DNA from: Verrucomicrobiales bacterium
GTDB lineage: Bacteria > Verrucomicrobiota > Verrucomicrobiia > Verrucomicrobiales > DEV007
DNA: 64,000 nt
NCBI GenBank assembly: GCA_002698785.1
Contig: PAAG01000051.1
Coordinates: 62,001-126,000 of the forward strand
Reading direction: 5' to 3'
Shown one piece after another: positions 3,531 to 62,826 of the stretch (the first letter of the stretch is position 1; every line of letters starts with the position of its first letter). The notes beneath the pieces were generated by a model that was given only the letters and a program-made list of their open reading frames with translations, had not been told where the DNA came from and made no database searches. The translations under genes and the position numbers were made by a program.

Positions 3531-5714
3531 TTACACATACTGCTCCGTCATCCGCTCCACGATAGCGGAAGGAACCTCCTCAAATCGGAGCGGCTCCATG
3601 GAAAAGCTTGCACGCCCTTTGGAAAGGCTGCGCATATCCGTGGCGTAGCCGAACATCTCGGCCATAGGCACCTCGGACTTCACTTGGCTGAGACCGTTGC
3701 GGGAATCGATATGAGCGATTTTTCCACGACGGCGATTCAGATCGCCAATGATGTCTCCCTGGAACTCGTCCGGAACGTCGACCGATACCTGCATCACAGG
3801 CTCAAGAAGGATGGATCCACCATTTGCGAGCGCGTCGCGCATGGCAAGGATCGCAGCAATCTTGAAGGCTTGCTCGTTCGAATCCACATCGTGGCTCGAA
3901 CCGCCTACCAGATCGACGTGAATGTCGACAACGGGATATCCAAGGATCACACCATTGTTCAGCGATTCACGAATGCCATTTTCACAGGCATTGATAAATT
4001 CTTTTGGAATCTCACCCCCAACAATTCGGTTGTTGAAGCTGAATCCAGCACCCCTCTCGGTCGGAGTGACTTTCAAAATCACGTGGCCATATTGACCTTT
4101 ACCACCGGTCTGCTTAACGAGCTTGTATTCACCGTTAGCACCTGAGGTAATAGTTTCGCGGTATGCAATCTGTGGCTTACCTGCATTGGTGCGCACACCA
4201 GACTCGGCCTCCATGCGCGACTGAATGATCTCCAGATGAAGCTCGCCCATTCCAGCAATAATCGTCTGGCCGGTTTCTTCGTCTGTGGATACCACAAAAG
4301 TGGGATCCTCTTCCGCGAGACGCTGAAGTGCGTCAGCAAGTTTTTCCGAATCAGCAGTCGTTTTCGGCTCGACCGCCATGGAAATCACAGGATCCGGAAA
4401 CGCAGGTGGCTCGAGCATAATGTCGAACTCCTTATCGTGAAGAGTGTCACCGGTGCGAACGTTCTTAGGACCAACGATCGCCGCAATATCTCCAGCGTAG
4501 CAGGTCTCGATATCCTTATGATCGTTCGACTGAATCTGAATCAGGCGACCGACCCGCTCTTTTCGACCCGTGCGAGAGTTCCAGACCTGATCACCTTTTG
4601 AAACTGTTCCAGAGTATACCCGGATAAAGACGAGCTTGCCGACATACTTGTCAGACCAAAGCTTGAACGCAAGCGCACAAAACTTTCCATTGTCGCTCGC
4701 AGGAGCTTCAACAACAACACTTTCATCCTCACAGGAAGTGCCCTCTGCAGCAGGAATCTCAACCGGGCTCGGGAGATAGTCAACCACTGCATCCAGAAGA
4801 TATTGAACACCCTTGTTTTTGAAAGCAGAACCACCAACAACCGGAATCAGCTTGTTAGCAATCGTCGCGCGACGAAGAGCCGCCTTAATGTCAGCAACGG
4901 TAATTTCCTCTTCATCGAGAAACTTGAGACCAATTTCCTCATCCGCATCAACAAGCGCCTCGAGGAGCGACTCGCGAGCAGCAATCGCCACTTCCTTCTG
5001 ATCATCAGTCAACTCGGCCACCTCGTAGGTCGAACCGAGAAGATCGCTATCCGAGTAGAGAACAGCTTTCTGATTCACCACGTCGATCTGGCCCTTCAGT
5101 GTATCCTCAGCCCCAATCGGGATAAGGATTGGTTGAGCGTTCGCACCAAGCTTTTCACGAACATCTTCAACCACCGCATTAAAGTCAGCTCCCACGCGGT
5201 CCATCTTGTTCACAAAAACAAGACGAGGAACATTGTATTTCGTCGCCTGGCGCCAGACCGTCTCGGACTGAGGCTGCACACCAGCAACACCGCAAAAAAC
5301 AACAACCGCACCATCAAGAACCCGGAGAGAACGCTCGACTTCAGCAGTGAAGTCAACGTGACCGGGAGTATCGATGATGTTTACGCGCTGCTTTTCACCG
5401 GTAAACGCCTTGTAGACACCTTCCTCTTCGAGCTGCACCCACTCAGCAGTGACCGCAGCTGAAGTGATCGTAATTCCACGAGCACGCTCTTGCTCCATCC
5501 AGTCAGTAGTCGCCTGACCATCATGGACCTCACCAATGCGGTGAATCATACCCGTGTAAAACAGTATCCTCTCCGTAAGCGTGGTCTTCCCCGCATCGAT
5601 GTGGGCCGCAATCCCAATGTTGCGAGTCCGCTCAAGCGGAAACGCGCGATTAGGAGAGTTGTGGGAACCACTCATCGAAACAGAAAAGGGAAGTGCTTGT
5701 AGGACAGCAGACAC
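3531..5714 (-). CDS. fusA: Translation elongation factor G
   Basis: EF-G is the GTPase that drives translocation and, with RRF, ribosome recycling. The G domain is at the N-terminus, with the P-loop AHIDAGKTT at residues about 37-45, the DTPGH and NKMD motifs, then domains II-V. The length of 727 is slightly over the usual 690-710. The longest frame begins at a GTG (5714), only 3 bp after the rpsG stop. An internal ATG at 5675 gives [19 protein letters not shown], which matches the usual EF-G start better. Neither has a strong Shine-Dalgarno, so the extra 13 residues are uncertain. Confidence 0.96.
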
Positions 5715-58918: not shown

Positions 58919-60616
58919 TCAGGATGCCTTGCGAACTGCCTGAATCACCATATTCACTCGGACCCTCCCGCGGAACTCATTGCGATCTATCGTAAAAGCA
59001 ATGTCCCAGGGAGGTTTGGGGAAATCGAGCTTCGACGAATTGAAATAGATTCCGTCCAACTCATAGCCATCCTGCTCGAGACGGAACTTGAGATGGCGGT
59101 CACGTATCAATCGAGGTTGGCGAGTCACACGCACGGCTCGTGACATGAAAAGCGGTTGAGGATTGGCCGCCCCAAAAGGGCGTAACAACTCGTAGCTCTC
59201 CATGAGGTCGAGAGTCAGCTCTTTGAACTGAATTTCTGCATCGATGTAGAGTTTAGGAATCAGGGTATCGCTTTCAACCTGGCCAACAACACTTCGAACG
59301 AAAGACTCTCGAAATTGTTCCAAGTTCTCTTCCTTCACGCTGACGCCTGCAGCCATCTCGTGACCACCGCCCGCCTCGATGCACTCTCGGGATGATTCCA
59401 AAGCCTGGACAAGAGACACACCTGGAATACTCCGTCCGCTTCCTTTTCCTAACCCGTTGTCATCAATGCCGACGACGAAAGTTGGGCGATGGTACTGCTT
59501 GGCGATACGTGAAGCGACGATCCCTACAACTCCGGGATGCCATCCACGCGCGCCCACTACGATTCCATAGCTACGATGCTCGGGAGGCAGGGCGTGGATC
59601 ATTTGTTCTGCCTCTTCTCGAGTTTCGAGTTCGAGGTTCTGGCGGTCGCGATTTTGATGATCGAGTGCCTCGGCCAGTTTTTTCGCACGATCCAAATCCT
59701 CACACAGCAGTAAATCGAGAGAGTCCTCTGCCGTATCGAGGCGACCAGAGGCGTTTAAACGAGGGCCTATCTTAAAACCAACATCGTGGGACCTGGCCGG
59801 GCTTTTTACACCAGCCACTGATTTCAATGCGATCAAACCAGGGTGGATAGTGCGATCCAGCTGCATCAAACCACGCCGTGCGAAAATTCGGTTCTCGGCT
59901 TCGAGCGGCACAATGTCTGCAATCGTCCCGAGGGCAACGATGTCGAGGTAGTCCTTGAGATCAAAATCAGCGAGAGGGCGGATCTTCAGGAGTGCATGAG
60001 CCACTTTGAAAACAACCCCGGCCGTGCAGAGATAATGAAATTCGTCTCCCAGTTTCGGATTCACTAGCGCCACGCATTCTGCGGTGCCTTCAACTGCTGG
60101 TTCGTGGTGATCGAGAATAATCAGATCTACCCCTTTCTCTTTGAGAAGTTTTGCCTCCTCACAAGAATTCGTTCCGCAATCGGCAGCAATCAGCAGATCA
60201 GGGAGACTTCCAGCCATGCTGTTCTCAATGCCCAACACGCTGAGTCCATATCCTTCCTCAAGCCGTGTCGGAAGGAACCGCCTCGGTTTGAGACCGTATG
60301 CGCTCAACACGCGATCCAGCAGTGCAATGGAACTGACACCGTCAACATCGTAGTCTCCGTAGAGAACAACCGATTGATTTCCATCCACCGCTTCGAAGAT
60401 TCGAAGGGCAGCTTTTTCCACTCCAGGGAGGCTGAAAGGATCCCGTAAATCCTTCAATCGAGGATACAAAAACTGCTCGAACTTTTCGTGGGATTCATAG
60501 CCTCTTTGCAGGGCAAGGGACACCACCGCCGGCGCGAGACCGAACTCGCGGGCGTACTCCTGAACCAGTCCCGGGTCCGGAGAGGGGGATAAGACCCATT
60601 TCTGCTTTGCTGGCAT
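58919..60616 (-). CDS. recJ: Single-stranded-DNA-specific exonuclease RecJ
   Basis: RecJ is a 5'-3' ssDNA exonuclease in recombination and mismatch repair. The 565-residue product shows the DHH-family motifs: YGDYDVDGVSS, ADCGTN, LDHHEP, then GTIADIVPL and GPRLNASGRLD, and the DHHA1 motif GGGHEMAAG. The OB-fold part is at the C-terminus. Gene end and lon end converge with a 16-bp gap and no clear terminator. Confidence 0.95.
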   Translation of the reverse strand: MPAKQKWVLSPSPDPGLVQEYAREFGLAPAVVSLALQRGYESHEKFEQFLYPRLKDLRDPFSLPGVEKAALRIFEAVDGNQSVVLYGDYDVDGVSSIALLDRVLSAYGLKPRRFLPTRLEEGYGLSVLGIENSMAGSLPDLLIAADCGTNSCEEAKLLKEKGVDLIILDHHEPAVEGTAECVALVNPKLGDEFHYLCTAGVVFKVAHALLKIRPLADFDLKDYLDIVALGTIADIVPLEAENRIFARRGLMQLDRTIHPGLIALKSVAGVKSPARSHDVGFKIGPRLNASGRLDTAEDSLDLLLCEDLDRAKKLAEALDHQNRDRQNLELETREEAEQMIHALPPEHRSYGIVVGARGWHPGVVGIVASRIAKQYHRPTFVVGIDDNGLGKGSGRSIPGVSLVQALESSRECIEAGGGHEMAAGVSVKEENLEQFRESFVRSVVGQVESDTLIPKLYIDAEIQFKELTLDLMESYELLRPFGAANPQPLFMSRAVRVTRQPRLIRDRHLKFRLEQDGYELDGIYFNSSKLDFPKPPWDIAFTIDRNEFRGRVRVNMVIQAVRKAS

Positions 60617-60782
60617 TTACGCACTCTAGGGGATTGCGCCCCCGTGTAAAGACACCGCTGAAAATCAGGGCGAAATACCTAACCAGCAGACCTTTCCAAA
60701 ACACTTTTTCGAAAAGATCAAATATTTTTTTGACTTTTTTCAATCAGGAAACCAGCCGGTTCGATTCCCTTGATAGAAACCG

Positions 60783-60807
60783 GGCGGTCACTGCTCAGCA
60801 AACCGCC
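60783..60807 (+). other. Leader hairpin before the small secreted protein gene
   Basis: GGCGGT and ACCGCC pair, and inside them TGC and GCA pair around TCA. The hairpin ends 28 bases before the ATG at 60836. It may stabilise the mRNA or control translation. Confidence 0.45.
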
Positions 60808-60835
60808 GCTACTTAATCAACAACCAAGCAATAAC

Positions 60836-61102
60836 ATGAAAAAAATCACACTCTCAATCATCATCGCCGTCGCAGCCCTGTTCGCAGGAGTAAACGTTGA
60901 AGCCGGTCAGTGCTACCGCCCTTCCTACAACAAGTGCCACGTTTACAAAGTGCACACCTGCGAAATCAATCGCTGCTACCACTGGAAAACAGGCTACGAC
61001 CACTGCGGACACTCTTACCGTTACCGCGTTGTAGTGGTGACCTACAAGACCACTTACTCGAACGGAACTTACAACACCTACACGAAGACGTTCCGCGCAT
61101 AA
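60836..61102 (+). CDS. Small secreted Cys/His/Tyr-rich protein
   Basis: 88 residues. I start at the ATG at 60836, because it gives a clean signal peptide (MKKITLSIIIAVAALFAG, cleavage expected near VEA-GQ). The mature 65 residues hold 5 Cys, 5 His and a very high share of Tyr and Thr: KCHVYK, HTCEINRCYHW, YDHCGHSY. They end in a Tyr/Thr-rich strand region. I do not recognise the family. A strong terminator 36 bp downstream, a leader hairpin and a standalone position suggest an abundant single-gene transcript. Metal binding or disulfide-linked envelope function is inferred from composition only. Confidence 0.75.
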   Translation: MKKITLSIIIAVAALFAGVNVEAGQCYRPSYNKCHVYKVHTCEINRCYHWKTGYDHCGHSYRYRVVVVTYKTTYSNGTYNTYTKTFRA

Positions 61103-61137
61103 TCCACCCTTTCATACAACACCAGGGGAAACAACGA

Positions 61138-61175
61138 GCGACCGGATGGGGAAACCTGTCCGGTCGCTTCATTTT
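61138..61175 (+). terminator. Strong intrinsic terminator after the small secreted protein gene
   Basis: GCGACCGGA pairs perfectly with TCCGGTCGC around a 12-base loop and is followed by TTCATTTT. It separates the small gene from the next sulfatase gene. Confidence 0.88.
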
Positions 61176-61176
61176 G

Positions 61177-61205
61177 TTGGCAAGCGCCGGGGAATCGGAT
61201 ACAAC
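61177..61205 (+). promoter_or_regulatory. Possible promoter of the third sulfatase gene
   Basis: TTGGCA and TACAAC are 17 bases apart. The -10 ends 13 bases before the ATG, so the leader would be only about 6-7 nt. Confidence 0.42.
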
Positions 61206-61218
61206 GCACTTCCCCGAA

Positions 61219-62826
61219 ATGAGAAATCTCCTATTTACACTCCTCCTCTTGGCCTTTGCCACCGTCACTGCGGCGGAAAAGCCAAACATCTTGCTCATCG
61301 TTGCAGATGACCTTGGGTTCAGCGATCTGGGATGCTACGGAGGAGAAATCGATACTCCCAACCTCGATTCCCTTGCTGAAGGCGGAGTTCGGTTGACACA
61401 GTTTTACAACACAGGCCGTTGCTGCCCTTCCCGTGCCAGCATACTAACCGGCCAGTATCCACACCGGGTAGGACTCGGGCATATGACACAGGATATCGGT
61501 CGCCCGGGGTATCGCGGCCGGGTTTCCGATGAAGCTACAACCATCGCACAGGCTCTGCAGCCAGGGGGATATCGTAGCTTTATCGCTGGCAAATGGCATC
61601 TCGGAACAGAGGATCCCACACAACATGGCTTTGAGGAATTCTATGGAACACTCGTCAGTGCCAAACGGTTCTTCGATCCAGACCACCTCCTTCGGCTACC
61701 AGAAGGCCGGACACCACGGAAATATCCAGAGGGAGAATTCTATGCAACTGATGCAGTAACCGATCATGCTCTCGACTTTCTGGACTTGGCTCGCGAGACA
61801 CCTGAAAACCCCTGGTTTCTCTATCTCGCGTATCATGCTCCCCATTTTCCTCTCCATGCCCCTAAAGAGGAGATCGCGAAATATGCCGACCGGTACGAGG
61901 GCGGGTGGGACAAATTACGGAAGGAACGCCTATCCCGAATGAAAGAAATGGGAATCGTTCCCGAGTCCACCGAACTCACTCCTCGGTCCCCCTATTGGAA
62001 CTACGGCGAAACAGAGACGGGAACTAATCCGGCTTGGAATTCACTCCCAGACGATCGAAGACTCGATCTTGCGCGCCGCATGGCGATCTATGCCGCAATG
62101 GTCGACCGGATGGATCAGCAGATCGGTCGAGTGATCGAAGACTTGAAAGAAAAGGGAGAATTCGAGAACACCCTGATTTTCTTTACATCGGACAATGGCG
62201 CTTGTGCCGAATGGGACCCTCGCGGATTCGACATCGTATCGAGTAACCAGAACATTCTCCATACAGGTGGCGAGATCGAGAAAATGGGAGAACCCGGCAC
62301 CTTTCACAGCTTTGGATCGGGATGGGCCAACGCAGCAAACACTCCCTGGCGTCTCTACAAGCACTTCAACCACGAAGGCGGTATCGCCTCACCGCTGATT
62401 GTCCACTTTGGTGATCATTTGGCTGAGCATGCTGGCGATATCGACTCTAAGCCTGCCCACATCATCGACTTTTTACCCACCATTCTTGCGACTGCGGATA
62501 CTGCATATACGGGATCGATGGAATTACCCGGAGAGAATCTCGGACTGCGACTCACGGGTGAAGACACAGAAAAACGAACACTTTTCTTCGAGCACGAAGG
62601 TCACCGTGCCGTTCGCCAGGGAAAGTGGAAACTGGTCGCGCTCGATGACTCTCCCTGGGAACTCTACAATATGAGCGAAGATCGGACCGAGCTGAATAAC
62701 CTTTCCGAGCAGCATCCTGACCTTGTTAAGAGCCTTTCCGATGAATGGGACGAGTGGGCGAAAGTAAACCTCGTCACTCCATTGCCGCAAGACCTACAAG
62801 TCGACTATCTGAAACCGAAAAGATAG
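61219..62826 (+). CDS. Secreted S1-family sulfatase (arylsulfatase type)
   Basis: 535 residues from the ATG at 61219, with a signal peptide ending in TAAE. The frame continues upstream through the terminator and the small gene, which is not coding in this frame. The formylglycine site is Cys68 in RCCPSRASILTGQYPHR. Ca ligands are in VADDLG and TSDNGAC. The motifs AGKWHLGTED and the HGFEEFYG region are standard. It would remove sulfate from a polysaccharide or small sulfate ester outside the cytoplasm. It converges with the OpcA-like gene with a 6-bp gap. Confidence 0.92.
   Translation: MRNLLFTLLLLAFATVTAAEKPNILLIVADDLGFSDLGCYGGEIDTPNLDSLAEGGVRLTQFYNTGRCCPSRASILTGQYPHRVGLGHMTQDIGRPGYRGRVSDEATTIAQALQPGGYRSFIAGKWHLGTEDPTQHGFEEFYGTLVSAKRFFDPDHLLRLPEGRTPRKYPEGEFYATDAVTDHALDFLDLARETPENPWFLYLAYHAPHFPLHAPKEEIAKYADRYEGGWDKLRKERLSRMKEMGIVPESTELTPRSPYWNYGETETGTNPAWNSLPDDRRLDLARRMAIYAAMVDRMDQQIGRVIEDLKEKGEFENTLIFFTSDNGACAEWDPRGFDIVSSNQNILHTGGEIEKMGEPGTFHSFGSGWANAANTPWRLYKHFNHEGGIASPLIVHFGDHLAEHAGDIDSKPAHIIDFLPTILATADTAYTGSMELPGENLGLRLTGEDTEKRTLFFEHEGHRAVRQGKWKLVALDDSPWELYNMSEDRTELNNLSEQHPDLVKSLSDEWDEWAKVNLVTPLPQDLQVDYLKPKR

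Follow-up and report, generated by a model that had tools for sequence, protein, structure and literature searches.

The question raised by this locus is what a very small gene, for a putatively exported protein rich in Cys, His and Tyr, is for, and whether it works alone. The window, i.e., the whole stretch of 64,000 nucleotides that was analysed, comes from a Verrucomicrobiales genome (GCA_002698785.1, contig PAAG01000051.1, positions 62,001 to 126,000 of the forward strand). Genomes, contigs and loci are designated below by handles starting with G, C and L, respectively; the window's own genome is G000. On our best reading, which we consider probable, the window gene is a small exported beta-sheet output of a dedicated ECF-type sigma regulon in Verrucomicrobiales, which also makes caspase-like (C14) peptidases. 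The features of the locus are given in Table 1.

Table 1. Features at the small-protein locus, in window positions.
Feature	Position	Strand	Basis
Promoter-like element CAATCAG-N14-CGATTC	60741-60767 (boxes 60741-60747, 60762-60767)	+	12 exact own-genome copies
Weak leader hairpin, not conserved	60783-60807	+	Folding
Coding sequence, 88-aa putatively exported protein, stop included	60836..61102	+	ORF, translation, homologues
Predicted signal peptide, residues 1-23	60836..60904	+	Cleavage near VEA/GQC judged by eye
Predicted three-stranded beta meander, residues 38-87	60947..61096	+	AlphaFold2
Intrinsic terminator stem-loop, 15-pair stem	61136-61169	+	Simple stem scan, folding

The open reading frame (ORF), with its ATG and stop as in the ORF list and its translation, was confirmed as a genuine gene rather than a chance ORF, because homologues exist. 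The mature part of 65 residues contains five Cys (26, 34, 42, 47, and 57), five His (35, 40, 49, 56, and 59), 11 Tyr, and 9 Thr, and the Cys/His-rich small protein described in an earlier note on this DNA is thus real. The same note's claim of a small exported protein in a single-gene layout was supported; export itself we infer, and a hydrophobic N-terminal stretch is recurrent among the family ORFs. The gene had been placed between a leader hairpin and a strong terminator. The terminator half of that layout stood: folding of 61103-61185 gave −34.3 kcal/mol (z −4.6; 0 of 200 shuffles equally stable), the stem by itself being weak evidence because 0.8 stems of this kind are expected from the simple scan when the sequence is shuffled. 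The leader half did not, as the hairpin reached −13.1 kcal/mol (z −1.8; 9 of 200 shuffles equally stable), and in four relatives (L121, L039, L048, and L045) the leader folded weakly (z −0.4 to −1.7) and differently. An RNA element in the leader was therefore rejected. The two matches obtained from Rfam were both far below gathering scores, and no sigma-70 consensus promoter was found on the plus strand of 60600-61300. Directly 5′ of the terminator, a CAGGGGAAACAA-like stretch (61108-61135) was observed, which is also present in the paralogue on contig C31 (L121) and, in similar form, in L039; it is possibly a 3′ UTR motif.

The statement that the protein belongs to no recognizable family held, with no Pfam or NCBIfam model above its cut-off. 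The same searches gave no match over the curated cut-offs for the six own-genome paralogues. The own genome (7.0 Mb, 60 contigs) carries six family members, and a seventh paralogue (an ORF in L245), found later, stands outside the counts. Homologues were detected in 45 of 141 related Verrucomicrobiales genomes: 32 of the 33 in the genus, five in other genera of the family, and eight in other families of the order. In a sample of the phylum, 3 of 387 genomes matched, all from the same order, and a plasmid collection gave no match to the window gene. The 16 named homologue-bearing records are metagenome-assembled Verrucomicrobiales or Verrucomicrobia, and one Akkermansiaceae. For comparison within the family, 112 ORFs, with starts set by a simple rule, were drawn from 100 fetched loci. 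These do not represent every match, because about 33 matching places were left out, most of them weaker than E 1e-8 (the stronger ones include G019:C225, 8.6e-13, and G020:C86, 5.2e-9).

By eye, the family comprises short window-like members, members with a linker rich in Gly, His, and Tyr, an 'LPCGRK..WKCVVAGSE' type, a 'KCHYPRKDRSFCKVFPNFS' type, and some odd ones. Neighbours are conserved within types: shikimate dehydrogenase, FKBP isomerase, or carbamoyl-phosphate synthase together with flavin-reductase-like genes. One type was seen directly 3′ of an FKBP-cluster gene in L067, L074, L076, L078, L093, L100, L107, L115, L122, L129, L131, and L135; these 12 cluster members were grouped by similarity, and L074, the one tested against Pfam, is an FKBP-type isomerase. 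A RecJ gene adjoins the window gene and likewise its nearest homologue, L039.

For the window protein, modelled with 16 relatives as input, AlphaFold2 predicted strands at residues 38-54, 60-74, and 79-87. The block-mean pLDDT was 93-96 from residue 41 and low for residues 1-30. Searching solved structures by sequence gave two non-significant matches (E 0.92 and 0.94), and fold comparison gave none at E ≤ 0.001 and none at Z ≥ 5 among the 1000 chains compared. Because three-stranded meanders are common, no structural relative is named and no new fold is claimed.

The composition of the mature part, with five Cys and five His in 65 residues, had led the earlier note to suggest metal binding, heme binding, or disulfide cross-linking at the envelope, a suggestion against which freely varying Cys and His positions would count. 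A conserved Cys/His pattern was looked for across the 112 ORFs. The near-invariant core consists of C57 (103), G58 (110), Y63 (96), T69 (111), Y70 (106), Y74 (100), and G77 (112), and C57 is the only near-invariant one among the window Cys. The others are retained far less often (C26 in 9, C34 in 59, C42 in 47, and C47 in 24), as are the His in the order listed above (2, 14, 11, 33, and 9), so that the positions vary largely in the free manner just described. Conserved Cys/His ligand positions, which mark small metal-binding proteins, were not found in the family. Mature parts hold 0 to 13 Cys, one member having none, and since the number is odd in 58 of the 112, the odd count that had been offered as a clue means little. 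The retention of C57 and the Gly/His-rich linkers of many relatives speak for a metal- or heme-binding or disulfide-cross-linked envelope protein; against it stand the variation of the remaining four Cys and five His, the Cys-free member, and the substitution of C57 itself in L134 and in the element-bearing L108, which has Ser. We consider this reading improbable, and the window protein, judged from these alignments, is probably not metal-binding. C57 may have a structural role, and single members may form disulfides, either intra-chain or inter-chain.

The element that begins 95 nt 5′ of the window ATG had been missed in the earlier note; it was spotted by aligning the window gene with its C31 paralogue. 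The own genome contains 12 exact copies, and the reversed-pattern control gave 0. The copies precede, among others, the window gene (C54), the C31 paralogue, a C14 gene (C48), and the N-terminal half of a sigma-factor gene (C53). A crude test placed an ORF with a signal-like start no more than 330 nt from 8 of the 12; one such ORF (L146) lies within another ORF and was judged spurious. The description of the gene as stand-alone therefore needs to be divided: the single-gene layout with its terminator holds, but the promoter-like element is common to the genes of a sigma factor and a caspase-like peptidase.

Seven sigma-bearing genomes of the genus contain 40 exact sites, of which 7 precede family genes, 4 precede C14 genes, and 3 precede sigma genes, against expectations of 0.006, 0.010, and 0.001, respectively (the count excludes 10 weaker family rows and 17 C14 rows of G024). 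The other 26 have no family, C14, or sigma gene behind them. The 26 genus genomes without a sigma orthologue hold 14 exact sites, including those in G007 (4), G026 (3), and G029 (2), and many of the sites in such genomes fall inside ORFs. Two further observations were made on exact copies. One copy (G000:C31:69608; L121 5387-5413), directly 3′ of a family gene, is followed by a terminator-like stem (5482-5509) with no family ORF between element and stem, which suggests either a decayed copy or a small RNA. Exact copies also lie upstream of a repeat protein with a signal-like start, which we take to be ankyrin-like, in G000 (L141), G006 (L191), and G026 (L194), the last of these genomes being without a sigma orthologue.

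The co-occurrence of element and sigma factor was assessed with a relaxed pattern ([CAT]AATCA[AG]-N13-15-CGATT[CT], at most 200 nt from the start). Sigma-bearing genomes were defined by a match of at least 125 bits, the next match being at 70 bits; they are G000, G005, G006, G012, G024, G025, G028, G049, and G062. The relaxed element precedes 14 of the 38 family genes in these nine genomes and none of the 74 elsewhere (Fisher p 4e-8, with relatedness ignored). Shuffled upstream regions contained it in 3 of 22,400 cases, and all fetched loci together gave 20 relaxed sites in 1.84 million positions on both strands. The element is lacking in 24 of the 38, two of which, L040 and L098, have just 73 and 2 nt of upstream sequence. 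On the FastTree core tree, element-bearing genes group: 2 of 2 (the window gene and L039, support 0.60), 3 of 3 (0.97), 9 of 11 (0.81), and, in another bacterial family (f4), 6 of 7 (0.85). L072 of G010 is a stray element-bearing gene under the tree's looser pattern.

In family f4, CAATCAA-N14-CGAT precedes seven of nine family genes, L085 and L086 being without it. The f4 genomes G079, G112, and G128 have a sigma match of just 68-70 bits, in the same cluster, and G092 has the element and no such sigma match. Copies that G079, G112, and G128 carry within the f4 sigma ORF itself were judged to be coding sequence and were not counted. Family genes are present in many genomes without a sigma orthologue, so that the sigma factor is dispensable for the family at large; most of its members are outside this regulon. 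The window gene itself has the element in common with the sigma gene of its own genome, which, with the co-occurrence, marks it as a candidate regulon target.

The sigma gene is linked to the family by gene order as well. Family gene, sigma-70-like gene, and membrane-protein gene follow one another on the same strand in G005 (L134), G049 (L079), G062 (L083), and G024 (L057). The own-genome sigma gene is split across the ends of contigs C53 and C49, whose orientations fit one gene broken by assembly. An exact copy of the element lies upstream of the sigma gene in G000, G012, and G028 and a variant copy in G025; none was seen before it in G006. Pfam matched L079 to Sigma70_r4_2 (42.5 bits, cut-off 25.7) and L134 to Sigma70_r4 (24.2 bits, cut-off 24.1). 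Scores for TIGR02937 (cut-off 42.9) were over the cut-off for L134 (46.9, covering residues 21-184) and L057 (53.4), and just under it for L079 (40.3) and L083 (40.0). Neither of the two sigma proteins compared with Pfam gave a match for sigma-70 region 2. On these Pfam and NCBIfam models, the linked gene is assigned as a predicted ECF-type sigma factor.

The membrane-protein gene lies directly 3′ of the sigma gene in all nine orthologue-bearing genomes, and in G062 the sigma stop overlaps its start. The protein matched no known family. Its model shows a helix, a membrane helix, and a beta domain, at a mean pLDDT of 57.5 that is too poor for an anti-sigma fold comparison. Gene order and layout suggest an anti-sigma factor.

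C14 peptidases were sought as PF00656 in 21 of the 45 genomes, a selection guided in part by C14 neighbours already observed; 18 of the 21 gave matches, 136 in all. In the proximity test, which took all 71 family rows and the 136 C14 rows of the 21 genomes, 10 family genes lay within 2 kb of a C14 gene (0.46 expected; on 7 of 61 contigs) and 12 within 5 kb (1.05 expected; on 9 of 61 contigs). None of these close pairs, at either distance, is in the own genome. Element-preceded C14 genes number one in G000, three in G005, and one in G024, where the element has an N13 spacer and the C14 gene is divergent from a family gene. The C14 assignment is based on PF00656 matches, and all five of these genes keep the His and Cys motifs of C14 peptidases. 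Some linked C14 genes are C14-FGE fusions. To our knowledge, what exported bacterial caspase homologues do is not settled.

These observations may be joined in the following scheme. The membrane protein, crossing the membrane once and joining a helical inner part to an outer beta domain in an anti-sigma layout, would hold the sigma factor until a signal beyond the inner membrane releases it. The freed sigma factor would transcribe from CAATCAG-N14-CGATTC, which we infer to be its promoter: its own gene, window-like genes, and some genes of exported C14 peptidases. The exported small protein would adopt its three-stranded meander fold, built about the conserved C-G, Y, T-Y, Y, and G residues, and act outside the cytoplasm beside the C14 peptidases. 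Its most likely role would be that of a partner of these peptidases (regulator or substrate), or feedback to the membrane protein. In its most specific form, which we put forward tentatively and regard as rather unlikely, the small protein is a partner dedicated to secreted caspase-like peptidases outside the cytoplasm, as their inhibitor, activator, or substrate, within an envelope-stress or cell-death circuit under sigma control, and may also report to the sigma-holding membrane protein, the family gene being first in the operon in some genomes.

The element might instead belong to another regulator, be it some other sigma factor or a DNA-binding protein, with the sigma gene as just one of its targets. 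The genomes do encode several further sigma-like genes, and exact sites also occur where the sigma orthologue is missing; the absence of the relaxed element from all 74 family genes outside the nine sigma-bearing genomes, and its position at the sigma gene itself in G000, G012, G028 and, as a variant, G025, argue against such a regulator, which we think rather doubtful. The small protein could also serve structurally, at the surface or in a matrix, as an exported building block of the beta-sheet kind, the C14 link then reflecting shared regulation alone. A small, Tyr/Thr-rich, three-stranded sheet with free edges, as modelled, would suit that purpose, as would the many paralogues and low-complexity linkers. 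The tight C14 linkage in several genera and the first position in the sigma operon of four genomes nevertheless suggest a more specific role, and we regard the structural reading as a serious possibility that is on balance unlikely.

The small protein may, further, be a feedback ligand of the anti-sigma-like membrane protein that reports the envelope state and shuts off or sustains the response. Its gene is promoter-proximal in the sigma operon of G005, G024, G049, and G062, but no family gene was observed immediately ahead of the sigma gene in G000, G012, G025, G028, or G006, and genomes carry several element-bearing copies; this reading appears quite unlikely. The sulfatase gene downstream of the window gene (61219-62826, PF00884) had suggested an accessory protein of sulfatases; this was the first lead, as three own-genome paralogues precede sulfatase genes. 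In one of them (L122; G000:C54:238550, minus strand) the end of the family gene overlaps the sulfatase start, which suggests coupling in that single case, and another paralogue also precedes one. The lead was dropped on two counts. The next downstream gene is a sulfatase for at least 9 of the 112 family genes, with 5 more at contig edges, the figure being a lower bound because the gene caller missed the window's own sulfatase. With 141 PF00884 matches across the 7.0 Mb of the own genome, such a neighbour says little. Moreover, the terminator separates the window gene from the sulfatase gene, L039 retains the RecJ neighbour without a sulfatase, and consistent linkage to sulfatase genes was not found. 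An accessory role of this kind is very improbable. An output of an ECF-type sigma regulon shared with C14 peptidases is the preferred reading of the window gene.

With it, an undescribed small-protein family of Verrucomicrobiales acquires a promoter sequence as well as candidates for its regulator and its partners. If true, a sigma factor that makes some exported caspase homologues together with one small protein would provide a handle on their function. Nothing on this family, element, or regulon was found in the open-licence PMC literature. What appears to be new is the small-protein family, together with the promoter sequence and the link between them; an ECF regulon and a caspase homologue beside a sigma gene are already known.

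The arrangement resembles ECF sigma/anti-sigma regulons in its small sigma-70-like factor with a membrane-protein gene directly behind, and in the one promoter motif found before the sigma gene itself and genes of exported proteins. It differs from them in that the sigma factor is tied to no named ECF group, the membrane protein is without a family, and the main small-protein target is undescribed. Csx29 is the protease of a type III-E CRISPR system (PMC10028731) and differs in being RNA-guided. Like the peptidases of the scheme proposed here, it belongs to the caspase clan and is tied to a sigma circuit of the ECF type. PMC8195603 describes EACC2-caspase neighbourhoods that include an ECF sigma factor and for which a coupling of sensing to transcription is proposed; a caspase domain and an ECF sigma factor occur together there as in the present system, and those neighbourhoods are built on EACC2 and TRADD-N domains. 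PMC3501461, in the text of which 'Verrucomicrob' is absent, treats metacaspase operons that contain sigma-70 genes, in Myxococcus xanthus and others. Its operon section and related passages mention neither a small exported partner nor a promoter motif, in which the present system differs. Caspase-homologue genes beside sigma-70-type genes are nevertheless common to both, and FGE-sulfatase fusions of caspase homologues are described in the same passages too.
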